A stretch of DNA of 64,000 bases, taken from the NCBI GenBank assembly GCA_947625935.1, contig CANQQE010000008.1, positions 49,922-113,921 of the forward strand, written 5' to 3'. This DNA comes from an uncultured Muribaculaceae bacterium. GTDB lineage: Bacteria > Bacteroidota > Bacteroidia > Bacteroidales > Muribaculaceae. The position numbers were made by a program, and so were the translations under genes. The notes beneath the pieces were generated by a model, which had not been told where the DNA came from, made no database searches, and saw nothing but the letters and a program-made list of their open reading frames with translations. Positions 7,198 to 41,071 of the stretch are shown here, piece by piece. Position 1 is the stretch's first letter, and every line of letters starts with the position of its first letter.

Positions 7198-8358
7198 ATG
7201 ACAGGTCTACTGGCAACAATACGTCGCGAAATCAGCCGTTTGTGCGGTCGCCGCATCTACTTTTGGACGATGATAATCGTCCCGGTTGCGTGCAGCCTGT
7301 ATTTCTTGTCGCTTCTAAACGAGGGACTGCCCCTGAAGTCACCGTCGGCCATTGTCGATCTTGACCACACGTCGATGTCGCGACAAGCCGTGCGCTCGCT
7401 CCAGGCTATGGAGCTGATCGATATCTGCGAAAAAGCCAATAGTTTCCATGAGGCGATGGCTATGGTGGACCGCGGTGAGATATATGGATTCTTCTATATA
7501 CCCGATGGGTTTCAGAAAGACGCCATCAGCGGCCGCACCCCCACTCTGTCCTATTATTCCAACATGGCTTATTTCGTCCCGGGCACGCTATCGTTCAAGG
7601 GCTTCAAGACTCTTGCCGTGTCCACTTCCGGCTCGATAGTCAAAGCCGAACTGGTATCGGTCGGCGTTGGTAGCAATACCGCCAACGCTATTTTGCAGCC
7701 GATGGCCGTGCAAGACCATCAGATTGGTAATCCATGGACCAACTACTCGATTTATCTGTCTAATTCTTTCTTGCCGGGGCTTGTAGAGCTGATGGTGATG
7801 CTTGTCACATCGTTCTCGATATGCCGTGAAATAAAGGAGGGGACCTCGGTCGAATGGCTCAGAACCGCCGGCGGCTCTATCTGGACGGCTGTTGTGGGTA
7901 AACTGATTCCTCAGGCTGTCATCTTCTCGGTCGTGGGAATTTTCGTCCAGTCGTTGATGTTCGGTTATCTCCACTTCCCGCTTAATGGCAGCGTGTGGAC
8001 GATGATGTTGGCGATGGTGCTTATGGTGGTAGCCAGCCAATGGCTCGCTGTGCTGTTCTGCTCGGTTTTTGTCAACCTGCGCATGGCGGTAGCGTCCTCG
8101 TCGCTGACAGCCATTCTCGCGTTCTCGATAGCCGCGTTCTCGTTCCCTGTAACGAGTATGTACGGTGGTATCGCGGCGTTCAGCTATATTCTGCCTGTCA
8201 GATACTATTTCCTGATTTATATCGATCAGGCTCTTAACGGCATCCCGCTGTTCTACTCCCGTTGGTATTTCATGGCTCTGCTGCTTTTCCCGCTGCTTTG
8301 CGGCGCGTTTTTGTGGCATCTGAAGAAAATGTGTCTCAAACCTGTCTATGTTCCCTAA
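7198..8358 (+). CDS. ABC-2 type transporter permease (first of two)
   Basis: A 386-residue inner-membrane protein of the ABC-2/YhhJ type. It has one N-terminal membrane helix, a periplasmic domain of about 150 residues (from LNEGLPLKSPSAIVDLD), then five hydrophobic helices in the C-terminal half. The start ATG at 7198 is 12 bp after the adaptor gene. It would pair with the next gene to form a permease dimer feeding the adaptor and TolC. No ATP-binding subunit is encoded in the operon, so energy coupling must come from elsewhere or work differently. Confidence 0.88.
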   Translation: MTGLLATIRREISRLCGRRIYFWTMIIVPVACSLYFLSLLNEGLPLKSPSAIVDLDHTSMSRQAVRSLQAMELIDICEKANSFHEAMAMVDRGEIYGFFYIPDGFQKDAISGRTPTLSYYSNMAYFVPGTLSFKGFKTLAVSTSGSIVKAELVSVGVGSNTANAILQPMAVQDHQIGNPWTNYSIYLSNSFLPGLVELMVMLVTSFSICREIKEGTSVEWLRTAGGSIWTAVVGKLIPQAVIFSVVGIFVQSLMFGYLHFPLNGSVWTMMLAMVLMVVASQWLAVLFCSVFVNLRMAVASSSLTAILAFSIAAFSFPVTSMYGGIAAFSYILPVRYYFLIYIDQALNGIPLFYSRWYFMALLLFPLLCGAFLWHLKKMCLKPVYVP

Positions 8359-8370
8359 ACGCATTGTGTT

Positions 8371-9564
8371 ATGAAAAGCAAGATTAACGATTGGTTTTCA
8401 GGGGTCTCCCGCACGTTTGCAAGGGAGATGTCGTTGGTGCTTAAAGATATAGGAGTGATAATCTTCTTCTTCGGGTTGCCGTTGCTCTACCCCATTGTCT
8501 ACACGCTCATCTATAATCCCGAGCTTGTCAGGGACATCCCGGTGGCGGTTGTCGATGATTGCCGTACTGCCCAAAGCCGTGAACTTGCCAGAATGGCCGA
8601 CGCTACCGAGGCTATGAACATAATGGGTTATCCGTCTAACATGGGGGAGGCGCGGAGGTTGATGAACGAGAAGGAGTGTTACGGCATCCTTTACATCCCC
8701 GAGGACTATTCGCGGCGCATAGGCCGCGGCGAACAGGGGGTGGTGGCGTTCTACTCCGAGATGAGCCTGCTGCTGCGTTACCGCGCGTTTGTCTCGGCGT
8801 TGACCGACCTTCAGTTGCAGACCGGGGCGCAGATACGCCGGGAGCTTCTCGACGCTCTCGGGGCTTCTTCGGCCGGTCAGTCGTCATCGCCGGTGTCTAA
8901 CGAGGCTTATTTTATAGGGGACCCCACTCAGGGTTTCGCTTCATTCATCATCCCCGGAATAATCATACTCATTCTCCAGCAGAGTATGCTTCTCGGCGTG
9001 ACCATGCTTGCCGGCAACTCGGCTGAGCGCCGCCGGCGCAATGGTGGCATCGACCCGCTGGCTGTTCAGTGCCCGCAGTCGGCCGGGATGATCGGGCGAA
9101 TGTTATGCTATATAGTGGTCTATATCCCCATGACCATCTATGTGCTCCACTTTATCCCCATGATGTTTGATCTCCCGCATATAGGTGATGCCGCTGACTA
9201 CCTGCTTTTCATCGTGCCGCTTTTGGTGGCTTCGGCGTTCTTGGGCATGACGCTTCAGGTCTTCGTGAAAGAACGTGAGTCGTCGATGCTCGTGGTAGTG
9301 TTCACGTCGTTGGTGTTCCTGTTCCTTTCGGGGCTGACCTGGCCGCGTTATGCCATGTCTCCGTTGTGGAAAATGGCGGGCGATTGTGTGCCTGCCACAT
9401 GGGGCGTGGAGGGTTTCATCCAGATAAACTGCAACGGCGGCACGCTTTCTGAGGCGGCACATCCCTACATGATGCTTTGGGTGCTTGCGGCGGTGTACTT
9501 CCTGACGGCTTACGCTGTCATCGCATGGCAACGCCGCCGGGTGTCGCAGCGCGCGGTGTCGTGA
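8371..9564 (+). CDS. ABC-2 type transporter permease (second of two)
   Basis: A 397-residue paralogue of the preceding permease with the same layout: N-terminal helix around residues 27-47, periplasmic domain starting DIPVAVVDDCRTAQSREL, and five C-terminal membrane helices, including the conserved segment FIIPGIIILILQQSMLLG. The 12-bp gap to the upstream permease and the terminator just past the stop codon show it is the last gene of the efflux operon. Confidence 0.88.
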   Translation: MKSKINDWFSGVSRTFAREMSLVLKDIGVIIFFFGLPLLYPIVYTLIYNPELVRDIPVAVVDDCRTAQSRELARMADATEAMNIMGYPSNMGEARRLMNEKECYGILYIPEDYSRRIGRGEQGVVAFYSEMSLLLRYRAFVSALTDLQLQTGAQIRRELLDALGASSAGQSSSPVSNEAYFIGDPTQGFASFIIPGIIILILQQSMLLGVTMLAGNSAERRRRNGGIDPLAVQCPQSAGMIGRMLCYIVVYIPMTIYVLHFIPMMFDLPHIGDAADYLLFIVPLLVASAFLGMTLQVFVKERESSMLVVVFTSLVFLFLSGLTWPRYAMSPLWKMAGDCVPATWGVEGFIQINCNGGTLSEAAHPYMMLWVLAAVYFLTAYAVIAWQRRRVSQRAVS

Positions 9565-15803: not shown

Positions 15804-16019
15804 ATGCATACTGACAAACAATATCTACAATCATTTGGCCGCCGCATCCAAGAACTAAGGAAAAAACTTGGAATTTCGCAAGAGGAACTGGCTTTCAGGG
15901 CAGGGTTCCATCGCACATATGTAGGTATGATTGAGCGTGGAGAACGCAATATCTCGCTCTGCAATTTGTTAAGATTGGCCGATGGCTTAGGAATTGATAT
16001 TAAAGATTTATTCAAATAA
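15804..16019 (+). CDS. Restriction-modification controller protein (C protein), XRE-type HTH
   Basis: A 71-residue protein made only of a Cro/CI-type helix-turn-helix. The motif is LRKKLGISQEELAFRAGFHR followed by TYVGMIERGERNISL and a dimerisation helix ending DIKDLFK. Size and sequence type match C proteins that bind an operator and time expression of the endonuclease relative to the methyltransferase. The next ATG (16021) lies one base past its stop, so C and R are translationally coupled. It sits in a visibly AT-rich island unlike the flanking GC-rich genes, which suggests horizontal acquisition. Confidence 0.88.
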   Translation: MHTDKQYLQSFGRRIQELRKKLGISQEELAFRAGFHRTYVGMIERGERNISLCNLLRLADGLGIDIKDLFK

Positions 16020-16020
16020 A

Positions 16021-16787
16021 ATGAAGTATGTTATAAATTCCAAAATGCAAATTTCCTATGAAGGGGATATGGTGCTATCGCCACAGGATGTTGTGAATGC
16101 AATCAATTTCTCTAACGATGCTTTACTCAAACTGAATGCTACTACTCAGGAGTTTGATATAAATATATTTGAGACTTTGGGTATGAGAAATTTAAGTGGT
16201 CTTGTCGGAGAATACTTTGCAAGAAGTATAATGAGGCTATCTAATGGAAACCTCCAAAGCAATCTTCATCAAGACGGATATCCTGATTTATGTCTGACAG
16301 ATACTGAGATAAAAAAGAAATATTTTGAATCCCTTTATACCGAAGAAAACGGTAAAAATATCCTTTCAGTAAAGAGGTGTTCAGCCCGTATCGGTATGGT
16401 GGCATAGAGATAAAAGCGACTTGTGGCAGCACACCTCCTGCCTCTATACATCCCAAACCGCTGGTTGGAGAACAACGGGTCTCTCTTATAAACAGTTTTG
16501 ACTGGAAAGCCCATCATAGAGAAACTAATCACTTGCTTGCCGTATTGTGGGATTTTATTAATGAAAACCCGACTATTGTGGCGGCATTCTATCAGGACGA
16601 TTTAACTAAAGATGACTGGGGTAATATCGTCAGGCCAAAAGAGGAAGGAGGCCGGACTACCAGCGTATCAATCATGAATTCCAAAGGCATAAAGAAAATG
16701 TGCAGTGGTTGGGTGGCTGTTTTGAATGATCCGGCATATATTAACCTATTGTCAAAAAAGAAATGGATAGGATATAAAGTGAATTGA
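16021..16787 (+). pseudogene. Type II restriction endonuclease gene, frameshifted
   Basis: Two overlapping frames together make one endonuclease of the PD-(D/E)XK type. Frame one (from ATG 16021) carries the Asp of QDGYPDLC and runs out of frame after NGKN to a stop at 16405-16407. Frame two carries GGIEIKAT with the E-x-K motif and continues to 16787. The break is at a run of five A (16354-16358). Adding one A gives a continuous reading through GKKYPFSKEVFSPYRYGG and a 255-residue protein. As written, the nuclease is truncated between its catalytic residues and should be inactive. The family member and cut site are not identifiable from sequence alone. A slip or assembly error at the A-run is the alternative explanation. 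Confidence 0.85.
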
Positions 16788-16808
16788 GCAATGGGCATGA
16801 AGGATCTC

Positions 16809-18106
16809 TCATTGCCCTGTTGCATGATAAGATAATATGTGATTAGCTATTTTGTCAATTAGCAATGGTGGAACGCTTTCGCCTATGGAATCTCTTATGA
16901 GACTGTCGCTGACATATTTTCCATCGATTTCGAATGAATAATTGTAGGGTAATATAGTCTGAATGATTAATCCTTCATAAAGAGACAATACTCTGTTCTG
17001 AGTCGGATGCAACTTGTTGTCGGAGCAGGCGTATTGAAAATTTTGTGTCAGTGTGCTTGACGGTTCATTCCATGACATTCTCTTGTATGCGCTGGTAAAT
17101 GCCTTCATAAATCTGCGTTCTCCTGTTTTTTTATCCTCGGTATAGGGCCTTGGTAGTATCTTTCCGCAACGTTCGCAATATAAAGGAGTGTCAGTATTGG
17201 ACTGATTTATTCCTTCGGCATTATGTTTCGCCCCGTGAATTCTGTTCCCTTGATACATACAATCGGGGTTGATGCATTGGTTGTTAAGTGCTGTCTGACC
17301 TTCAGGTGTATTTGAAATCCAAAATAATTTTTTGTCATCCAATAGAGGAACACGATGGAGTGGTATATGGCCGTCTATGTTTTTCCCTTTCTCTGATGAT
17401 AGTGGGGGTAGATCAGATATCACGTCTCTCAGTGTTATCCAAGGTTTAACAAAAAATGACGCTTCTTTTCCATGTGTAGGTTCAGGCATGAAGCATATTC
17501 CTTTATTAGGTCTGCTTGACTATTAGGTCTGCTTGACCTGTGTAAGATGGTAATCAGCCTTTTTCTGTGTTGTGGTACGCCATAATCAGCAACATCTATG
17601 GCAATCGGTTTCCCTTCATAGCATTCGCCTAACTCTCTATTGATATATTCGATAATGCTTATAAGGCCATCGCCATCCTTTATAAGTGTGTTAATCATAT
17701 TAGGTACATTTTCAAAAATTACCCAGTATGGCTTTAGCTCTTTGATTATATCTATGGCAGGGATGATAAGTCTGTTCCTATCATCAAATTTAGGGCGTAT
17801 ACCCTCACGGAAATTCTTCAACATTGTCCCCATGCCGTTAGACGACATTCCTTGGCATGGAGGAGTTGCCATAATTACGAACGGTGGTTCCGTAAACGAG
17901 GTTTTATAGAATTCGATTATTTTGCTCTTCAGATTCCAAATATCTCCACAGAAACAAGTAGCTTCAGGATAATTATGATGGAACAAATCCATTCTTTCAG
18001 GCAATAGCTCACAGCCAATAACGGTTGAAATATTGTTGGCCTTTAATCCTAAATCTCCTATTCCAGATGATGAAAATAAACTTATCGCATTTAGTGGCAT
18101 AGACAC
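16809..18106 (-). pseudogene. C5-cytosine DNA methyltransferase gene of the R-M island, frameshifted by a 17-bp duplication
   Basis: The N-terminal frame (from ATG 18106) has motif I LFSSSGIGDLGL, the catalytic PCQ motif ATPPCQGMSSNG, ENV (VIFENVPNM) and motif VIII YGVPQHRKRLI. It then shifts and stops at 17435. The C-terminal frame (to 16809) has the target-recognition region with two Cys pairs (CINPDC and CERC, a possible zinc knuckle) and motif X GESVPPLLIDKIA. The break coincides with a perfect 17-bp tandem duplication at 17504-17537. Removing one copy gives HRSSRPNKGICFMPEPTHGK in frame and a protein of about 426 residues. It is convergent with the C-R genes. With the duplication the enzyme lacks its recognition domain and is presumably dead. 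Confidence 0.87.
17504..17537. repeat. 17-bp perfect tandem duplication inside the methyltransferase gene
   Basis: TATTAGGTCTGCTTGAC occurs at 17504-17520 and again, immediately adjacent, at 17521-17537. Because 17 is not a multiple of three, the second copy shifts the frame. Loss of one copy by slippage or recombination would restore the gene. Confidence 0.95.
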
Positions 18107-31882: not shown

Positions 31883-31914
31883 TTTGTATTAAACGTGTTT
31901 AATAGCTAATTTTG
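31883..31914 (+). promoter_or_regulatory. Promoter of the polyprenyl-pentose cassette
   Basis: TTTG at 31883-31886 and TAATTTTG at 31907-31914 are 20 bp apart. The five following genes overlap or lie within 7 bp of each other, so this is probably the single promoter for all of them. Confidence 0.75.
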
Positions 31915-31954: not shown

Positions 31955-33220
31955 ATGAATTACAAAAATTTCATGGACAAGCACGGTGTAAAATTGTTCA
32001 ATTTGTTAATTTGGGCTTACTTTTTAGCAAGATTACCTTGGCAGTGTCGAGTAATCGTTGATTGTGCGACTGATTTTACTCGGTTGAATCTGATTGAATT
32101 TATGTCAAATTATCAAGGGGGATTTCTGCGGCGAGGTCTTCTTGGTGAATTGCTGTTTTGGTTTACATCTTTCTCACATATTGATTTTAGGTGGTTAGCG
32201 ATACCTTTGGCGGTTGGGTGCTTTTTGGTGATTGTCTTTTTCCTTTGGAGGAAATTTAAGCAATATCAAATTCATTGGTGGCTTCTGCCCATGTCTTATT
32301 GTCTTGGAGCTTCATATGGCTGTTTGATAAGGAAAGATTTTATTATCATTGCATTACTCGCTGTAATGTTGTTTTGTTTGAAATCAGATAAAATTAAACT
32401 GGCTTATAGATTCTTGATTGTGACAATATTAAGTGTTATTGTGTTATTGATGTATGAGCCGGCGTTTTTTATGTTTATTCCAATCTTGTGGCTAACGATA
32501 TGGCGAGACAATCAAATCAATATATCTTTAAAATATATATATATATATACAGGATTGATGATTTTAACCATGATTAGTCTGACATTTTTTGGCATAGGTA
32601 ATATTGAGACTGCAGAACAAATGCATGCGTCATGGCATAATCTCATGCCCGCACATATTGAGCCTGAAATATCACAAAATGAACGATTCCTTGGGTGGGG
32701 ATTGGCTGATTCGTTAAAAATGAATGGAAGTGTATTCTTCAGTTTCGGATGGACATCAGAGTTGTATAAAATTATAGTTTTGATTGTTACCCCATATATT
32801 TTCATGCGTTTTCCATTTGTAGCCATTTATGGTAAGAAGAGGTTTCCGTGTAGTTATGGTGTCTGGAGTGCGGTGATTTTATTCCAAGTTCTGTCTCAAC
32901 TCCCCCTGTGGTTGGGTCTGAGCATAGATTTCGGCCGTATGTTCATGCATGTTTTCGTTACTTCTGCACTCTATGTTTTCATTATGCCAAAACGGGTAAT
33001 AAACAGAACTTTCTCATTCCAAAGTGTTAACTGGGTAGGAAAGTTAAATAATTTTATCGATTGTATTATTCCAAATCGATTACTTACCCTTATGTTTATA
33101 ATGATGTTTTATGGCGTTGGCTTTTGTGGGTACAATTTACAGAATTTATATAGTAATTCAGTTATAGGTGGAATTTTATACAGCTTGTATTCCAATTATT
33201 TAGAGTTTATAGTTGCATAA
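31955..33220 (+). CDS. Polytopic membrane protein, candidate GT-C-type glycosyltransferase
   Basis: A 421-residue protein with about ten hydrophobic helices and no recognisable soluble domain. Between the first two helices is an acidic and basic loop (CATDFTRLNLIEFMSNYQGG, then FLRRGLLGE). GT-C glycosyltransferases carry their catalytic acidic residues in this first extracytoplasmic loop, so a role as the membrane transferase that uses a lipid-linked sugar is plausible, but I do not recognise a named family. An (AT)8 tract lies in the coding sequence at 32533-32549. It is AT-rich like the rest of the cassette and overlaps the UbiA gene by one base (TAATG). Confidence 0.62.
   Translation: MNYKNFMDKHGVKLFNLLIWAYFLARLPWQCRVIVDCATDFTRLNLIEFMSNYQGGFLRRGLLGELLFWFTSFSHIDFRWLAIPLAVGCFLVIVFFLWRKFKQYQIHWWLLPMSYCLGASYGCLIRKDFIIIALLAVMLFCLKSDKIKLAYRFLIVTILSVIVLLMYEPAFFMFIPILWLTIWRDNQINISLKYIYIYTGLMILTMISLTFFGIGNIETAEQMHASWHNLMPAHIEPEISQNERFLGWGLADSLKMNGSVFFSFGWTSELYKIIVLIVTPYIFMRFPFVAIYGKKRFPCSYGVWSAVILFQVLSQLPLWLGLSIDFGRMFMHVFVTSALYVFIMPKRVINRTFSFQSVNWVGKLNNFIDCIIPNRLLTLMFIMMFYGVGFCGYNLQNLYSNSVIGGILYSLYSNYLEFIVA
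32533..32549. repeat. (AT)8 dinucleotide tract within the membrane-protein gene
   Basis: Seventeen consecutive alternating A/T bases encode a KYIYIYT stretch. Gain or loss of one repeat unit would shift the frame of the first gene in the cassette, so this is a potential slippage switch. Confidence 0.85.
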
Positions 33221-34107
33221 TGAAATATATCGAATTAGTTAGGTTGCTGAGGCCTCAACAGTGGGCTAAGAATCTCTTTGTGTTCCTGCCCATGTTTTTC
33301 TATGGTCAACTCACTGATGCGGCCGCTTTGAAAAATGCTGTTATCGCATTTGTGGCATTTTCTTTGGTAGCAAGTTCTGTATACTGTTTTAATGATTTGA
33401 AAGATGTTGAGAGTGATAAGCGGCACGAAAAGAAGCGGCATCGTCCCATAGCATCGGGTGCGGTGTCTCCGGCTGAGGCTGTAGTCTGTTGTATTGCTGC
33501 TTTTTGTATTGGAATACTTGCTACGTCACTATTGCCCGATTATGCATCTTTGGAATTAGCTTATATCTTGATTGCCTACACGATTATTAATTTGGCTTAC
33601 TGTCTGAAGTTAAAGCATATCGCTATTATTGATATTGTCATAGTTGCCGTTGGATTTGTGCTTCGAATACTTGCTGGTGGTTTTGCTACTGCAACTCCGA
33701 TTTCACATTGGATTGTCTTGTTGACATTCCTCTTGGCTCTGTTTTTAGCTGTGGCCAAACGCCGTGACGACGTAATCATTTATGAGCAGTCGGGAGCGAA
33801 AATGAGAAGAAATATTGACAGATATAACCGTCAATTCATAGATCTGGCTTTAGGCATCATCTCTACACTCTGCATGATGTGTTATATAATGTACTCAGTA
33901 AGTCCTGAGGTCGTTACCCGTTTCGGTACTTCATGGCTATATTTGACTTCGGTGTTTGTTCTGGCGGGAATCCTAAGATACCTGCAGCTCGCCATTGTTG
34001 ACATCCGAAGCGGTTCACCGACCCAAATACTGCTTCACGACAAGTTCATCCAGATGTGCATTTTAGGTTGGCTGCTTACGTTTGCTTTAATTTTGTATGT
34101 GAGATGA
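33220..34107 (+). CDS. UbiA-family decaprenyl-phosphate phosphoribosyltransferase-like enzyme
   Basis: A 295-residue membrane prenyltransferase of the UbiA superfamily with eight or nine helices. The first Asp-rich motif is FNDLKDVESDKRHEKKRHRP, closely matching the NDxxDxxxD-R-H-x-x-K-x-R-P form of DPPR synthases (Rv3806c type). The second region is AVAKRRDDVIIY. These enzymes transfer phosphoribose from PRPP to polyprenyl phosphate at the inner membrane, the first step toward lipid-linked arabinose or ribose. The start overlaps the upstream stop, and the stop overlaps the HAD start (ATGA). The subfamily call is strong from the motif; the exact lipid is unknown. Confidence 0.87.
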   Translation: MKYIELVRLLRPQQWAKNLFVFLPMFFYGQLTDAAALKNAVIAFVAFSLVASSVYCFNDLKDVESDKRHEKKRHRPIASGAVSPAEAVVCCIAAFCIGILATSLLPDYASLELAYILIAYTIINLAYCLKLKHIAIIDIVIVAVGFVLRILAGGFATATPISHWIVLLTFLLALFLAVAKRRDDVIIYEQSGAKMRRNIDRYNRQFIDLALGIISTLCMMCYIMYSVSPEVVTRFGTSWLYLTSVFVLAGILRYLQLAIVDIRSGSPTQILLHDKFIQMCILGWLLTFALILYVR

Positions 34108-34715
34108 ACGATAACAAAAAGATTATAGCCGTTTTCGATTTTGACGGAACTATCACCAAAAAAGACAGCATGATGGCTCTTATACGCTATGCCTTTGGCG
34201 CAAAGCGGCTTAGCCGGTGGGTAGCATTGAACATCCCTTGGCTTGTGTTGATGAAGTTGGGATTGATGCCGTCGGTTACGGTGAAGGAACGGTTACTCTC
34301 ATATTTTTTGTGCGGAATGCATTATGATTGTTTTGAAAGAATATGTGATGGATTTTTTAAGACGATCGGCCGTGAGATACTGCGTGATGATGCGTTAGAG
34401 TGCATCAGGAGACATAAGGCCAATGGTGACTACACAATAATAGCCTCGGCGAGTGCCGACGTTTGGGTCAAACCGTTTGCCGATTATCTGGGTATTGATA
34501 GGTTAATTTCATCGCGTCTTGAAGTATCTTCAGATGGGAAATTAACGGGAAAATTAATTGGAGAAAATTGTAAAGGACGAGAAAAGGTTGCTCGTTTAAA
34601 GGAAATATTCCCTGAGCGCACGGGTTATGTTATTGAGGCTTATGGTGACAGCTCCGGAGACAAAGAATTGCTTCAGTTCGCCGATGTCTCGCATTATAAA
34701 GTATTTAAAAATTAG
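34104..34715 (+). CDS. HAD-superfamily phosphatase (subfamily IB), candidate polyprenyl-phosphoribose phosphatase
   Basis: A 203-residue soluble phosphatase of the serine-phosphatase-like HAD group. Motif I is AVFDFDGTITKKDS with an intact DxD, motif II IIASASADVW, and motif IV EAYGDSSGDKELL. The ATG at 34104 overlaps the UbiA stop codon as ATGA, so the two are translated together. In the lipid-arabinose pathway a phosphatase must remove the 5-phosphate from polyprenyl-phosphoribose, and HAD domains are also found fused to UbiA enzymes in some bacteria. That step is the likely role here (inference from coupling). Confidence 0.85.
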   Translation: MNDNKKIIAVFDFDGTITKKDSMMALIRYAFGAKRLSRWVALNIPWLVLMKLGLMPSVTVKERLLSYFLCGMHYDCFERICDGFFKTIGREILRDDALECIRRHKANGDYTIIASASADVWVKPFADYLGIDRLISSRLEVSSDGKLTGKLIGENCKGREKVARLKEIFPERTGYVIEAYGDSSGDKELLQFADVSHYKVFKN

Positions 34716-34722
34716 AATCGTT

Positions 34723-35079
34723 ATGAATATATTTCTTATTATCGTGAGCGTGCTTCTCAATTGCGGTGCCCAACTGCTGATGAGAAAAGGAATGCTGTGC
34801 GTCGGCGAACTTGGTGTCGGCGAGTTTTTTCAAAAATTGGGCGTGATGGTAAGCAACATTTGGTTGTGGGGTGCTTTTCTGAGCTATGCGATAAGCATCA
34901 TCCTATGGATGGTGGTGTTGTCACGCGTACAGGTAAGTTTCGCTTATCCTTTTCTAAGTATAGGATATGTGGTTGCGGCGATATGTGGCTATTACTTCTT
35001 TTCTGAGGATTTGTCTTTGGTCAGAATAATGGGAATAGCTGTAATATGTTTAGGTGTATTTTTAATATCAAGAAGTTGA
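34723..35079 (+). CDS. Small multidrug-resistance/EamA-like membrane protein, candidate lipid-sugar flippase subunit
   Basis: A 118-residue protein with four hydrophobic helices, as in the SMR family and the ArnE/ArnF flippase subunits. It begins with a hydrophobic helix and LLNCGAQLLMRKG, and has the family-like stretch SRVQVSFAYPFLSIGYVVAA. The start is the ATG at 34723, 7 bp after the HAD gene; the longer upstream frame belongs to the HAD coding region. SMR-type proteins move undecaprenyl-linked aminoarabinose and related lipid sugars, so flipping of the lipid-pentose made by the neighbouring genes is the most economical role. Confidence 0.8.
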   Translation: MNIFLIIVSVLLNCGAQLLMRKGMLCVGELGVGEFFQKLGVMVSNIWLWGAFLSYAISIILWMVVLSRVQVSFAYPFLSIGYVVAAICGYYFFSEDLSLVRIMGIAVICLGVFLISRS

Positions 35080-35081
35080 CT

Positions 35082-36059
35082 ATGAAATATATTGTTTTTG
35101 GAGGCAACGGATTCGTAGGACGTTACCTGGCTGACTCACTGGGCGAAAAATACGGTTACGGCAAAGTGCTTGTCGTAGATTTACAAGATAATCTCGATAA
35201 TAGGATTTCATCTAAAGCGTCATACATAAAAACCGATATATGCGATAAAGATGCGTTGGCTCGCATCGAGATGGATAAAGATGATGTGGTTATAAACTTA
35301 GCGGCAAATCAGTATCATACTAAAGTGCCGTCCAACCGTGAGGAGTATTTCTTTAGCGTGAATACTGTCGGTACGCGAAACATACTGGAGATTATGGAAA
35401 ACAAAGGCGTTGGAAATTACCTGATGCTAACGACCGATATGACCTATGGAAAGCCACAGTACCTTCCCATTGATACCAACCATCCGCAAAATCCTTTTGG
35501 CCCTTACGGACAGAGCAAGAAAGCCTGTGAAGAACTTTGTCGGGAATATCGTAAAAGGGGTATGAATATAACCATTATGCGTCCCCGCATGATAAACGGT
35601 CCGGGTCGATTGGGTATTCTTGTCAAGCTATTTAAACTGATCGATATGGGGCTGCCTGTTCCAACAATCGGCGACGGTAGGAACCACTATCAGATGATTT
35701 CTGTGTTTGATTGCGTTTCGGCAATTATGGCGGCGATAGAAAAAGGATTACCGAATGAGGAGTACAATCTTGGCTCAAAAGATTCCCCTGACATCAAAAC
35801 ATTGCTTAAAGGTGTCATTTCTACCGCAGGCTCAAGAAGCATAGTTATATCTACTCCGGGTAAAGTTGTGAAGTCTGTATTGCGCTTGCTTGACAAAATC
35901 GGGCTTACGCTGATGTACCCCGAGCAGTTTATGATTGCTGATGAGGAATATGTATTGGACATTAGCAAAACCGAACGCGATCTCGATTGGCATCCCAAAT
36001 ACAATGATGCCGATATGCTTTCTGAAGCCTACAGGATGTACCGTCAGGTTAAAAAATAA
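35082..36059 (+). CDS. NAD(P)-dependent epimerase/dehydratase (extended SDR)
   Basis: A 325-residue extended short-chain dehydrogenase with GGNGFVGRYLAD (G-x-x-G-x-x-G), the strand-end Asp VVDL for NAD binding, the Thr in LTTDMTYG, and the catalytic pair Y-x-x-x-K in GPYGQSKKACE. The C-terminal substrate domain includes IGDGRNHYQMISVFDCVSAI. SDRs of this type epimerise or reduce sugar nucleotides or sugar lipids. It starts 2 bp after the SMR gene and completes the cassette. It may do the epimerisation that DprE1/DprE2 perform in mycobacteria, or supply another sugar; which is undetermined. Confidence 0.85.
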   Translation: MKYIVFGGNGFVGRYLADSLGEKYGYGKVLVVDLQDNLDNRISSKASYIKTDICDKDALARIEMDKDDVVINLAANQYHTKVPSNREEYFFSVNTVGTRNILEIMENKGVGNYLMLTTDMTYGKPQYLPIDTNHPQNPFGPYGQSKKACEELCREYRKRGMNITIMRPRMINGPGRLGILVKLFKLIDMGLPVPTIGDGRNHYQMISVFDCVSAIMAAIEKGLPNEEYNLGSKDSPDIKTLLKGVISTAGSRSIVISTPGKVVKSVLRLLDKIGLTLMYPEQFMIADEEYVLDISKTERDLDWHPKYNDADMLSEAYRMYRQVKK

Positions 36060-37084: not shown

Positions 37085-39409
37085 TTAGTTAGTCCAGGTC
37101 AGGTTCCAAATTGAGACGCGCTCTTTGTTACCCGTCTGGTTGCCGATGTGGTCGTTGACAATTTCTATCGAGAAGTCGCCCGACAGGTTGACATCCATCG
37201 AAAACGACTGGGCTTCACCCTTCTTCACCGGATCGACGTTCACGGTCTGTGTTTTGACTACGGCCCCGTTTTGCATGATGTTGACAGTGAACTGGCATTT
37301 GGTGTCGGTAAATGCGAAGCCATAGTTGAATGTCAGTGTCTTTATGCCGCCGGTAAGCGTGGGGGAGATGAGTCGGCCGGGGGTCGACGCTTTTCCGTTC
37401 AGGGTGGGGGCGAGAGTGTTGTCGCCACCGATGAACGAGAAGCGGGGATTCTGGTCGGTGCCCGATGATGAGCCGCCGAGTATTATGGAGTTCTCTGCCT
37501 TCCAGCCGGTGGCGTTCTCATATGTTCCGTAGGGTGACGCTTTGGGTGTTCCGCCGTTGAATGAGTCGAAGTCCCCTTTGTAGTCTCCCGACGGGGTGGG
37601 AGGAGTCGGAGGGGTGGGGGTGTCGCCGGCGTTGAGTTTCACGTCATCGACACACCAGGTGGCGTAGTTGGCATCCTGTGTGGCGGCATACTGGAATCCG
37701 ATGTAGATGGTGCCGGTGAACTGTTTCAGGTCGATGTTGCCTGAGTTTTTCCAGTCGGAGTAGACGGCCGATGTAGAATATGAGGGGAGTGCGGGAGAGA
37801 GTTTCACTTTCATTGTAGCCGTGGCCGGATCGGGTTTGTCGAGAGCGTAGACCTCAAATGTGGTGGTAGTGGCTCCGTAGCCTGCGACCTGGGTGCGGAA
37901 CGTCAGAGTCTTGTTTGCCACGCCCGCCATGTCGATTGGCGGGGTGAGCAGCCAGGAGTCGAACGGTGCCGTGCCCTTGTATCCGGTCATGGCGGCGTAA
38001 GAGTTGTTGGAGAACGATGTCACATACCAGGTCTTTGTGCCTTCAAGCTGTATCTGAGTCCAACCCTGAGGAATCGCGCCCCCTTCAAATGTCTCGTCAA
38101 TCGAGGTCACTGCGCCCTCCACGGGGGGAGTGATGCCCTCTATTTCCCATTCGGTCGATGCGCCTGAATTGCCCGTTATACCCGCCATTCCGAGTACTTT
38201 GGCGAACGTTCCCGTGATCCATATCTGTTTGCCGAGGTTGGCGGGATTGTCACGGAGATTGCCAAGGGTGCGGAGCGGAGTGCCTTGAGGCAGTTCCACG
38301 ACGACGCATTTGTCAAACTCTTTGACATCGGCCGCGGGTGCTATGACGAGGGTGTTGTTGAGTGTCACCTCTGCGCCCCATTCGATGTCGGCGTTGCTTG
38401 TGACGTTGGTGACTTCGGGGGCGACGGCTCCGACGATGTAGCCGGTCATCCATCCCGATTTAGAGGTCTGGTCGTTGACAAACTTGACAACCTCTGCCGT
38501 GGTGTAGGGAGTTTCGCGGGTTCCGCGTGGGAGGGTGGGGTTGCCGAAGTTCATGCAGTCGTCGGCGTCGTTGAGCACAAGCTGCCAGTTGGCCGACGAG
38601 CCGTTGCTGTAGAACGACAATATGCCGCAGACGTCGCCCGACCCTTCGGGAAGCATTTGGCTCCAGAAACTTGAATAGCCGCTGGTGCGCACGGCCACTA
38701 CGGTTGTCGACGCTCCGTTGCCCTTGCTGTCCACGAGGTTTTGGTTGACGTTTTCGTGATAGGTCGAGAAGGTCTCTTTGCCGCCGTTGACAAACGAAAC
38801 ATTGTTGAATCTCACGAATTGGCTCTGGTATTTGACGCAGGCATCTTTGTCTATCGACATAAATTCGTCAAAATTGTCGAATGTGAGGGTGTCGATTTTG
38901 GCTGTTTCTGGCAGCCCGTTAAGTTCGGCGTGTACAGCGAAAAGCTCGCGGCTCATGAAGCTGGCCTGAGTGCCGTCAAGATACTCTTTTGATATGCCAA
39001 ACTGCATCAGCCCGGCATATTTTCCGATTGTCAACCCGGTCACGTCGACAACTATCTCCTGTCCCACGCGGTAGTGCTGGGTCAGGTTGTATGAGTCAAT
39101 CGAGAAGGTGATGGCTCCCGTTGCATCCTGAAGGATGAGATTTTTGAACACATTTCCGGCCTCGTCCGACGAGATCACGCGCCCGGCTATGATGTAGTGG
39201 CTGCCGTCCTCGCGGGTACCTACTTCGGTGGTGTAGTTGATGAGGTCTTGCCAGAAGATTTCTTTCAGTTCCTTGATTGTGGTGTTGGGCTGCAGCGTAG
39301 CCACGGGTATCTCAAGCCCGGGGGCGTCGATGTCATCCTGGCATGATGTCACCCCTGCCGCGGAGGCAGTGAGCAGTGTCAGCCCTATGATATATTTTAA
39401 TCTGTTCAT
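37085..39409 (-). CDS. Outer-membrane lipoprotein with DUF5689, DUF6359-like OB-fold and choice-of-anchor J domains
   Basis: A 774-residue lipoprotein (lipobox AAGVTSC, lipidated Cys about 23). In order: DUF5689 (about 40-305, with YIIAGRVISSDEAGNVFKNL), an OB-fold-like DUF6359 segment (about 310-435, from RETPYTTAEVVKFVNDQTSK and GWMTGYIVGAV), a choice-of-anchor J domain (about 440-610, with AAMTGYKGTAPFDSWLLTPP), a Pro/Thr linker, and a final beta-sandwich (about 625-774). The anchor J and DUF6359 parts are clearly paralogous to the secreted protein at 45327. It is the last gene of the minus-strand set led by the TonB receptor, 27 bp after the other DUF5689 lipoprotein. It probably binds a ligand at the cell surface; the ligand is not known. 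Confidence 0.85.
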   Translation of the reverse strand: MNRLKYIIGLTLLTASAAGVTSCQDDIDAPGLEIPVATLQPNTTIKELKEIFWQDLINYTTEVGTREDGSHYIIAGRVISSDEAGNVFKNLILQDATGAITFSIDSYNLTQHYRVGQEIVVDVTGLTIGKYAGLMQFGISKEYLDGTQASFMSRELFAVHAELNGLPETAKIDTLTFDNFDEFMSIDKDACVKYQSQFVRFNNVSFVNGGKETFSTYHENVNQNLVDSKGNGASTTVVAVRTSGYSSFWSQMLPEGSGDVCGILSFYSNGSSANWQLVLNDADDCMNFGNPTLPRGTRETPYTTAEVVKFVNDQTSKSGWMTGYIVGAVAPEVTNVTSNADIEWGAEVTLNNTLVIAPAADVKEFDKCVVVELPQGTPLRTLGNLRDNPANLGKQIWITGTFAKVLGMAGITGNSGASTEWEIEGITPPVEGAVTSIDETFEGGAIPQGWTQIQLEGTKTWYVTSFSNNSYAAMTGYKGTAPFDSWLLTPPIDMAGVANKTLTFRTQVAGYGATTTTFEVYALDKPDPATATMKVKLSPALPSYSTSAVYSDWKNSGNIDLKQFTGTIYIGFQYAATQDANYATWCVDDVKLNAGDTPTPPTPPTPSGDYKGDFDSFNGGTPKASPYGTYENATGWKAENSIILGGSSSGTDQNPRFSFIGGDNTLAPTLNGKASTPGRLISPTLTGGIKTLTFNYGFAFTDTKCQFTVNIMQNGAVVKTQTVNVDPVKKGEAQSFSMDVNLSGDFSIEIVNDHIGNQTGNKERVSIWNLTWTN

Positions 39410-39436
39410 TTCAAGTCGTTGTTGATGTGGTTAAAA

Positions 39437-41071
39437 TCAATTGAATCCTTGGCAAGCGTCAGTGTCGTTGAGCACGAGCTGCCAGTCGGTGGCGTAGTAG
39501 CTCAGGATTGCTGTGACGCTGCCTGTGCCGGCGGGGAGTATGTTGCTTTGGAATGAGGCGTAACCGCTGTTGCGTACCAGGATTTTCTTGCCCAATGCGT
39601 CGATGAGGTAGCGGTTGGTGTTGGTCTGCGGCTCTGCGTAGGTCAGTGAGCCGCCGCCGTCCCATGTCATGTTCTCGAGTTTCACCATGCGGCTCATCAG
39701 ATTGCGGCGTTGATCAGCGTTAGCGTTGGCCGCTGTCAGTTCAGGGATGGTGACTGTGGTCACTTTGACAGCCGAGGGGTCGGGGGTGCCGACTTTCACG
39801 GTTTTTTCGGTGAAATCCTCTTTTTCCGCGAATGTCATCGACGGCGCGCCGTTGAATTCACCGAGACCGCCGAGCTGGAACAGGTTGTTGTACATCCCGG
39901 CATACAACCCCGTGACCTTGATCAGGATTTCCTGTCCTACGGGATATTCGAGATAAAGATTCTTTGCGTTGATGCCGATGGTGAGACCTTCACCGGTCTC
40001 TGTATCCTGGATGATGAGATTTTTGTAAACGTTTCCTGCAGCGTCCGACGACACCACGCGTCCGCGTATCACCATATCCTCGTCATTGGCTGTTTTGCCC
40101 ACAAGTGTCGCGCTGTTGCGCTCGCTCGACCAGTAGAGCTGTTTGAACTCGGCGATGGTGGTGTTGGCTTCAAGTTCCGAGGGGTCGACGGGTGTGTCTA
40201 CGCTCCAGTCCTCAAAGTCGACGCCGGCGAGATTGTTGAGCATGAGCTGCCAGCCGTCGGTGCCATAGTAGCTGAGTATACCTGTCACTGACCCGGTGCC
40301 TTTGGGAAGGACTACACCCTGGAATGTGGCGTGGCTGCTGTTGCGTACTATGATGCGGTTACCTTCGGAGTCCTTGATGTAGCGGTTGGTGTTGTTGGCA
40401 ACCGATGCGGGTTCGGCGAAGGTGAGCTTGCCGCCGCCGTCCCAACGCACATCTTTGATGCGGACTATGCGGCTCATGTAGTGACGGCGTTGCTCAGGGT
40501 TGTTGTTGGCGGCGCTAAGCTCGGCGAGTGTCACCTCGGTGGTGTCAATCTCCTGCCAGTTTGACAGACCGTCACACCAAGCGTGTTCCTTGAATGTCGA
40601 GGCAGCCGCGAAAGTCATCGACGGCGCGCCGTTGTATTCGCCCAGGCCACCGATCTGGAACAGATTGTTGTACATTCCGGCATAAAGCCCGGTGAGGTTG
40701 ATGACCACTTCCTGTCCGATCTGCCATGTCTTGTAGATTGACGTGGTGTCAAGGCTGATGGTGAGTCCGTCGCCTGTCTCAAGGTCTTGGATGACGAGGT
40801 TCTTATAGATATTTCCTGCTGAGTCCGACGACACCACGCGGCCGCGTATGATGATATCTTTGCCGTCGGCGGTCTTTCCTATCTCGGTCGCGCTGTTGCG
40901 CTCATCAGACCAATACGGTGAGGTCTTTAAGTCGGCAATGGATGTGTTGACAGTGATTCCTGCCGGCACTGAGGGTACGACGCTCGGAGGTGTATCCCAA
41001 TCATCGTCGCAAGCTGTGAATCCGGCGAATGCCAACAATGCCGATGCTATATATAATAATTTATTTTTCAT
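39437..41071 (-). CDS. Outer-membrane lipoprotein with two tandem DUF5689 domains
   Basis: A 544-residue lipoprotein (lipobox AFAGFTAC, Cys about 21). It is two copies of the DUF5689 domain: the first about residues 40-285 and the second about 300-544. Copies share SERNSAT/DERNSAT, IRGRVVSSD-AGN-YKNL, the run GLYAGMYNNLFQ-GGLGE-NGAPSMTFA and W-L-LN at the end. The IRGRVVSS...IQD pattern resembles OB-fold modules of secreted nucleases such as YhcR. It sits between the TonB receptor and the larger lipoprotein, where a SusD-like partner would be expected, and may play that surface-binding role (inference). Confidence 0.85.
   Translation of the reverse strand: MKNKLLYIASALLAFAGFTACDDDWDTPPSVVPSVPAGITVNTSIADLKTSPYWSDERNSATEIGKTADGKDIIIRGRVVSSDSAGNIYKNLVIQDLETGDGLTISLDTTSIYKTWQIGQEVVINLTGLYAGMYNNLFQIGGLGEYNGAPSMTFAAASTFKEHAWCDGLSNWQEIDTTEVTLAELSAANNNPEQRRHYMSRIVRIKDVRWDGGGKLTFAEPASVANNTNRYIKDSEGNRIIVRNSSHATFQGVVLPKGTGSVTGILSYYGTDGWQLMLNNLAGVDFEDWSVDTPVDPSELEANTTIAEFKQLYWSSERNSATLVGKTANDEDMVIRGRVVSSDAAGNVYKNLIIQDTETGEGLTIGINAKNLYLEYPVGQEILIKVTGLYAGMYNNLFQLGGLGEFNGAPSMTFAEKEDFTEKTVKVGTPDPSAVKVTTVTIPELTAANANADQRRNLMSRMVKLENMTWDGGGSLTYAEPQTNTNRYLIDALGKKILVRNSGYASFQSNILPAGTGSVTAILSYYATDWQLVLNDTDACQGFN
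39450..40960. repeat. Diverged internal duplication in the DUF5689 lipoprotein gene
   Basis: The DNA of the two domains is still visibly similar. For example TCATCGACGGCGCGCCGTTG recurs in both copies (near 39838 and 40617), and the words around CCGACGACACCACGCG recur (near 40048 and 40828). The offset is about 780 bp. Boundaries are approximate. Confidence 0.7.

Follow-up and report, generated by a model that had tools for sequence, protein, structure and literature searches.

Five-gene cassette predicted to make and transfer a lipid-linked pentofuranose in an uncultured Muribaculaceae bacterium

Layout of the cassette

A stretch of 64,000 nucleotides (nt) from an uncultured Muribaculaceae bacterium, hereafter the window (GenBank assembly GCA_947625935.1, contig CANQQE010000008.1, positions 49,922 to 113,921 of the forward strand), carries a cassette of five co-directional genes on the + strand at window positions 31955-36059. 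The source genome measures 3.69 Mb, with a listed completeness of 99.99. An earlier sequence-only reading had described the genes as one tight operon with its own promoter and AT-rich base use, and each part of that description has held. From gene 1 to gene 5 the junctions are a 1-nt overlap, a 4-nt overlap, and gaps of 7 nt and 2 nt. GC content is 0.400 in the cassette against 0.523 in the whole window, with values of 0.348, 0.421, 0.422, 0.412 and 0.428 for genes 1-5; 500-base windows lying fully outside the cassette between 26000 and 42000 range from 0.49 to 0.61, so that the cassette forms a sharp low-GC block. An exact match to TTTG-N20-TAnnTTTG, which we take to be the Bacteroidetes-type promoter consensus, lies at 31883-31914 ahead of gene 1. 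The pattern occurs 8 times in the window where 1.14 matches are expected, and none of 100 shuffles reached 8; a match alone is no evidence of function. The start of gene 4 was set at the first ATG (34723), downstream of the start in the mechanical list of open reading frames.

31883..31914, + strand: promoter match, Bacteroidetes-type (TTTG, 20 nt, TAATTTTG), 40 nt upstream of gene 1; pattern search
31955..33220, + strand: gene 1, 421 amino acids (aa), likely GT-C-type transferase without Pfam family; order conservation, predicted model
33220..34107, + strand: gene 2, 295 aa, UbiA-family polyprenyl-phosphate phosphoribosyltransferase; NCBIfam, Rv3806c profile match, motif
34104..34715, + strand: gene 3, 203 aa, HAD-IB phosphatase, which would take the 5-phosphate off the ribose; TIGR01490, DFDGT
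34723..35079, + strand: gene 4, 118 aa, SMR-type small membrane protein, proposed flippase; Pfam SMR
35082..36059, + strand: gene 5, 325 aa, extended SDR, putative epimerase acting on a lipid-linked pentose; Pfam Epimerase, motifs

Assignment of the genes

The enzyme classes of genes 2-5 are established by family profiles. Gene 2 is by its sequence a polyprenyl-phosphate phosphoribosyltransferase of the DPPR-synthase type, as had been proposed. It scores 91.2 bits against Pfam UbiA (cut-off 34.2) and exceeds two NCBIfam DPPR-synthase cut-offs (238.0 against 234 and 220.1 against 207); it falls below those of two further models of the DPPR group (182.2 against 474 and 179.7 against 351). A profile made from 14 gene 2 relatives matched Rv3806c of Mycobacterium tuberculosis, the best solved relative, at 3.7e-61, the runner-up protein being at 7.2e-9. 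Scores for other UbiA functions were all below cut-off (heme O 42.3 against 210.3, UbiA 37.6 against 275.5, MqnP 21.1 against 375), and these far lower family scores, together with the Rv3806c profile match, rule out a menaquinone, heme or ubiquinone prenyltransferase. Grouping with the menaquinone or heme enzymes, which the sequence-only reading had named as the result that would tell against it, was thus not what was found. The NDxxDxxxD motif for metal and phosphoribosyl pyrophosphate (PRPP) is invariant across 14 sequences (N58, D59, D62 and D66). In the presumed second loop K180 and R181 are invariant and are followed in the window by R-D-D, where an acidic residue follows. The spacing of the first motif equals that of N247, D248, D251 and D255 in ORF15, the corresponding Citrobacter enzyme, whose second-loop residues R366 and E369 are described as dispensable in the main text of Kelly et al., 2024 (PMC11127046). 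The best named relatives of gene 2 are from Prevotella and Xylanibacter (49-53% identity over nearly the full length), and the genome encodes one other UbiA protein (at G000:C4).

The HAD phosphatase, SMR protein and SDR of the sequence-only reading likewise passed their Pfam cut-offs. Gene 3 is on these profiles a HAD-IB phosphatase, with scores of 131.8 for Pfam HAD (cut-off 27) and 135.3 for TIGR01490 (cut-off 98.3), and its DFDGT motif is invariant in 8 sequences. Gene 4 scores 26.0 for Pfam SMR (cut-off 23.7) and 30.2 for EamA (cut-off 28.2); its best NCBIfam model, ArnF, gives 56.8, under the cut-off of 99. Its counterparts in the three sister cassettes, with L095 and L092 as the sequences compared, are 64-69% identical. 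It is proposed to be an SMR/ArnF-like protein that serves as the flippase. Drug efflux, which the sequence allows, was set aside on the conserved neighbours.

Gene 5 scores 134.4 for Pfam Epimerase (cut-off 20.9) and carries GGNGFVG, Thr118-Asp119-Met120 and Tyr142/Lys146. Among the 25 NCBIfam matches listed it reaches no curated dehydratase or epimerase cut-off, including that of the RmlB-type nucleoside diphosphate-sugar 4,6-dehydratase equivalog (104.3 against 365.1). The Thr-Asp-Met loop is common to the SDRs of the window, L095, L093, L094, L226 and L242. We take Thr-Asp-Glu to be the RmlB-type loop and regard Thr-Asp-Met as intermediate between the patterns of GalE and RmlB.

Gene 1 matched no Pfam family, no PDB sequence and no NCBIfam model above its cut-off. 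Across 23 aligned sequences, which are 20-29% identical to the window protein, R59, R60, R126, E168, D325 and R328 are invariant, and E48, directly past the first long helix, is nearly so. The predicted model (mean predicted local distance difference test score 87.4, predicted TM-score 0.89) lists more than 10 helices of at least 4 residues. Foldseek returned zero matches at E 0.001. The top two matches were to PglB (probability 0.97 and 0.94, E about 0.05, TM-score about 0.35), and among the 50 matches listed all with probability above 0.1 were GT-C enzymes, including EmbB, Pmt1, DPY19 and AftA. This pattern lends moderate support to gene 1 as a GT-C-type transferase.

Occurrence in other genomes

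Gene 2 is present in 21 of 150 genomes of the family and gene 1 in 32 of 398, own genome included. At 20 family UbiA loci other than that of the window, the same strand within 7 kb held a HAD gene at 15, gene 1 at 3, a GtrA gene at 2 and an SMR gene at 1; the window-type SDR was at none of them, with one 33-bit match (L083). The order gene 1-UbiA-HAD was seen at 11 of 20 gene 1 places fetched wide (three from one genome), making 14 loci besides the window when L067, L068 and L072 are counted. By genome, 7 have both genes, 14 gene 2 only, 1 gene 1 only and 128 neither (Fisher p 2.9e-6, uncorrected for relatedness); the table covers the genomes in both searches, estimated to be all or almost all of the 150. 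The order UbiA-HAD-SMR-SDR recurs in L095, L091 and L092, where the gene that follows varies: L095 has a DUF6044 protein, L091 a protein of 483 aa with no Pfam family, and L092 a 580-aa protein with one sub-threshold match. Gene 1 and a window-type SDR stand together at no other locus seen. The co-occurrence of all five families that had been expected is therefore borne out for two overlapping subsets, UbiA-HAD-SMR-SDR in 3 other loci and gene 1-UbiA-HAD in 14, while all five were found in the window alone.

Copies of gene 1 also occur away from UbiA. Nine scanned neighbours of such orphan copies comprise five housekeeping-type genes, one porin, one TPR protein, one DUF6056 protein and one without family. 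Genome G007 encodes four gene 1 homologues, three of which were fetched and have no UbiA nearby (L142, L144, L146), and has one UbiA locus elsewhere; several transferases may share one lipid donor in this genome.

SDRs with 71-73% identity to gene 5 are encoded in the three sister cassettes, those of genomes G320 (L092) and G412 (L091) and of the faecal record L095. A close SDR (E 1e-40) was present in 3 of 295 genomes of the order, own included, and in 2 of 7 in the family of G320 and G412. Four further SDRs are 44-49% identical: those of Neorhizobium (L093) and Azospirillum (L094), taken from the best matches among 1229 plasmid records, and those of L226 and L242, two of 40 UbiA-HAD loci fetched from 52 matches in 48 of 369 genomes in the class of a Methyloprofundus metagenome-assembled genome. 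Among those 40 loci, 25 have a DprE1-like match and 9 an SMR match (either strand). Of the eight loci of the SDR clade, window included, seven have UbiA and SMR in the stretch (on opposite strands in L226); the exception, L094, has a GMC oxidoreductase. A DprE1-like oxidase occurs in three of the eight (L093, L226, L242), a class-III aminotransferase in L093 and L226, and an adh_short protein of 251 aa, the size of DprE2, in L242. More distant SDRs (26-31% identity) in 32 of 395 genomes of the phylum were left out of the clade because BLAST of 19 fetched loci, covering up to about 1.5 kb per side, found no UbiA, HAD, SMR or gene 1 beside them.

In the source genome FAD_binding_4 gave just two matches, in open frames of 936 and 360 aa, and no DprE1-sized oxidase, a size that we take to be about 460 aa; a GMC oxidoreductase was not found. 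A DprE2 profile made from one sequence recovered itself alone among the scanned loci and carries no weight as evidence of absence.

Some loci deserve mention in their own right. At L226 (2844-5714, - strand) a DprE1-like flavin adenine dinucleotide (FAD) oxidase is fused to a class-III aminotransferase, and at L093 (6113-10485, + strand) the two lie in the same gene row, in both cases beside UbiA and the SDR clade; the arrangement is perhaps an amino-pentofuranose route. L239 (7640-9058, - strand) is a UbiA-HAD locus without a DprE1 match that has an SMR match and a TGxxGxxG-type SDR, 29% identical to that of the window, and it is a candidate ORF13-like system. A poly-G tract in the SDR gene has 10 G in L092 (G320) and 9 G in L091 (G412), and both copies are out of frame there. 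A 400-kb sample of G320 held G/C runs of length 6 (12 runs), 7 (1), 8 (4), 9 (2) and 12 (1); five places among the 7 runs of at least 8 were inspected, and most seem intergenic or near gene ends. Slipped-strand switching of the SDR gene in G320 and G412 is possible, and poly-G as a general switch is at most a lead.

Proposed pathway and alternatives

The five genes probably form a self-contained cassette that decorates a surface glycan with a pentofuranose. We infer the order of the steps, the sugar, its acceptor, the flippase role of gene 4 and the transferase role of gene 1 as follows. Gene 2 would condense PRPP with undecaprenyl phosphate (undP) to undP-ribose-5-phosphate, and gene 3 would remove the 5-phosphate to leave undP-ribose. 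Gene 5 would act as an epimerase on the lipid-linked ribofuranose, C3 being the most likely position and xylofuranose the product; gene 4 would flip the lipid-linked sugar across the inner membrane, and gene 1, as a GT-C-like enzyme, would transfer it in the periplasm to the acceptor. A polyprenyl-phosphate pentose made by UbiA, HAD and SMR proteins, with gene 1 as the likely transferase, had been anticipated by the sequence-only reading and is supported by the profiles, the loci and the Foldseek matches.

Several observations weigh against this pathway. By E-value and TM-score gene 1 resembles GT-C folds only weakly, and 9 of the 20 gene 1 loci have no UbiA in the fetched stretch, although some contigs are short. 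On the same strand, a HAD match is missing from 5 of the 20 family UbiA loci and an SMR match from 19 of them. The acceptor glycan was not found in a search of the cassette's nearest neighbours. The window SDR has GGxGxxG where Citrobacter ORF13, likened to it by description, has TGxxGxxG, and the TGxxGxxG-type SDR of L239 is only 29% identical. The aminotransferase neighbours of the SDR relatives leave room for other chemistry.

Extended SDRs act as stand-alone epimerases in other pathways, and gene 5 might be a one-enzyme C2 epimerase that turns polyprenyl-phosphate ribose into the arabinose form in place of DprE1/DprE2, in a genome that has neither a DprE1-sized FAD oxidase nor a GMC oxidoreductase. 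This is unlikely: relatives of the SDR adjoin DprE1-like oxidases (in L242 with the DprE2-sized protein as well), which would make a second C2 enzyme redundant, and in the main text of Kelly et al., 2024 (PMC11127046) the sole demonstrated lone SDR of such a system gives xylofuranose, while the arabinofuranose systems named there carry DprE1/E2 homologues. C3 is the leading candidate, tentatively held, on two grounds: ORF13 sets the precedent where an SDR acts alone, and the SDR relatives occur with DprE1-like enzymes, for which the known partner reaction takes place at C2. By this analogy xylofuranose is a more likely product than the arabinose of the sequence-only reading. A low probability also attaches to another reaction altogether, in which the SDR makes or reduces some other precursor, such as an intermediate of the keto, deoxy or amino-sugar kind, and the sugar passed on by gene 1 is ribofuranose or some modified pentose. 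The curated cut-offs that gene 5 does not reach, the Thr-Asp-Met loop between what we take to be the GalE and RmlB patterns, and the aminotransferase of L093 and L226 all fit such chemistry. The window cassette, L095, L091 and L092 have no aminotransferase or oxidase, however, and a Met where a 4,6-dehydratase would have Glu speaks against that activity.

It is rather improbable that gene 1 is not a transferase but, for example, a polymerase or transporter, the sugar being used by an enzyme encoded elsewhere. Its lack of sequence matches, its weak structural match and the loci without UbiA would agree with this, but the fixed gene 1-UbiA-HAD order in 14 other loci and the co-occurrence by genome speak for a transferase, and orphan copies in genomes with UbiA elsewhere (G007, G035, G087) fit extra transferases drawing on one donor. 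G057 is an exception, having an orphan gene 1 and no UbiA elsewhere in a genome 68% complete. A broader idea, which we regard as doubtful, is that the SDRs are a clade of one-enzyme epimerases on polyprenyl-phosphate pentofuranose, giving the C3 (or C2) epimer alone, lyxofuranose together with DprE1/DprE2 (L242), and a sugar perhaps switched by poly-G in one related genus. According to the main text of Kelly et al., lyxofuranose is in no solved carbohydrate structure.

Surroundings and origin

The cassette is flanked by a DUF2851 gene and an AmiA-like gene. Its low GC and patchy presence suggest that it was probably acquired horizontally; the gene 2 UbiA was not found in 3 other genomes of the genus sampled, one of them 68% complete. 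Of the 19 other DUF2851 loci seen, two (L175, L176) have the 29293-30462 gene next to DUF2851, and the AmiA-like gene was not found in the 3 other genus genomes or the 19 DUF2851 loci, so that an empty site was not seen. Phage cargo was rejected as an origin: viral contigs scanned twice with single proteins and once with the SDR alignment yielded no relative, and a scan with the UbiA alignment yielded one distant relative (L194). That protein, 36% identical to the one in the window, is encoded at 7962-8819 of a 63-kb viral contig (IMG/VR). L095, although a GenBank 'phage' record, is an unannotated, unverified faecal scaffold of 6.6 kb with a BT4734-like domain and proves no phage. Elsewhere in the window, a second low-GC block (15994-18106, GC about 0.38-0.41) holds, by eye, a C5 cytosine methyltransferase-like sequence across two overlapping frames with two short open reading frames beside it. 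At 37085-41071 (- strand) two adjacent genes encode large proteins that show similar stretches, both internally and from one protein to the other, also judged by eye.

Comparison with known systems and significance

The closest described system is that of Citrobacter youngae O1/O2 (Kelly et al., 2024; PMC11127046), in which ORF12-ORF15 comprise a UbiA phosphoribosyltransferase, a HAD phosphatase, an EmrE/ArnE-like small transporter and a GT-C transferase. The main text reports demonstrated synthase, phosphatase and GT-C transferase activities, the flippase being untested there, and loss of the extended SDR ORF13 turned xylofuranose side chains into ribofuranose (mutant and nuclear magnetic resonance (NMR)). 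The window likewise encodes synthase, HAD phosphatase and small flippase candidate together, as in this three-component pentofuranose system, and like C. youngae O2 it has one extended SDR; ORF12 and ORF13 are likened by description, not by sequence. The window differs in having UbiA and HAD as separate genes, in the GGxGxxG motif of its SDR, in a gene 1 protein of 421 aa that lacks the carbohydrate-binding domain described at the C terminus of ORF12, and in lying beside no recognised glycan locus among the neighbours examined.

The same logic having been published for Citrobacter, the sequence-only reading was largely right about the mechanism and not about its novelty. The novelty lies in the setting; in a putative transferase family that Pfam does not model and that is often fixed to UbiA-HAD; in UbiA and HAD genes that are separate and accompanied by an SMR gene and this SDR clade; and in the swapping of the presumed transferase from one cassette to another. 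Arabinofuranose is reportedly also mentioned in a study on type IV pili (PMC11841053). Outside mycobacteria, PMC11127046 alone treats the pathway among the literature matches listed, judged by title and abstract start with subscription journals uncovered, and its main text, supplement aside, has no word beginning with 'Bacteroid' in a term search. With this cassette, PRPP-derived pentofuranose decoration would reach a bacterium that is very probably one of the Bacteroidales; the Prevotella and Xylanibacter relatives of gene 2 and the type of promoter agree with this placement. Gene 1 offers a testable transferase family that travels with UbiA-HAD, and a single NMR experiment could reveal what the SDR clade makes of a lipid-linked pentose. 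If a commensal does carry xylofuranose or arabinofuranose on its surface, this would matter for phage receptors and for recognition by antibodies. Loci with DprE1-like enzymes and this SDR are places to seek an unseen sugar.

The mycobacterial decaprenyl-phosphate-arabinose pathway shares the Rv3806c-type first enzyme, an SMR-type exporter (proposed to be Rv3789, per Kelly et al.) and, with gene 1 as the likely counterpart, GT-C transferases (Emb/Aft). It differs in using DprE1/DprE2, where the window has a single extended SDR and its genome no DprE1-sized oxidase that could be found, and in the scale of its acceptor-side machinery, which is small in the window. The HAD phosphatase and mycobacterial Rv3807c are unrelated, as the main text of Kelly et al. 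describes. Like the Gtr-type O-antigen seroconversion cassettes (GtrA, GtrB and a Gtr transferase), the window and its relatives combine a donor module with a swapped transferase, represented elsewhere by the DUF6044 protein of L095 and other large proteins in L091 and L092, and some UbiA relatives have a GtrA-type protein after the HAD gene. Unlike the Gtr cassettes, the window has an SMR protein in place of GtrA, and its sugar would be a pentose from PRPP via UbiA rather than a hexose from a uridine diphosphate (UDP)-sugar via GtrB.

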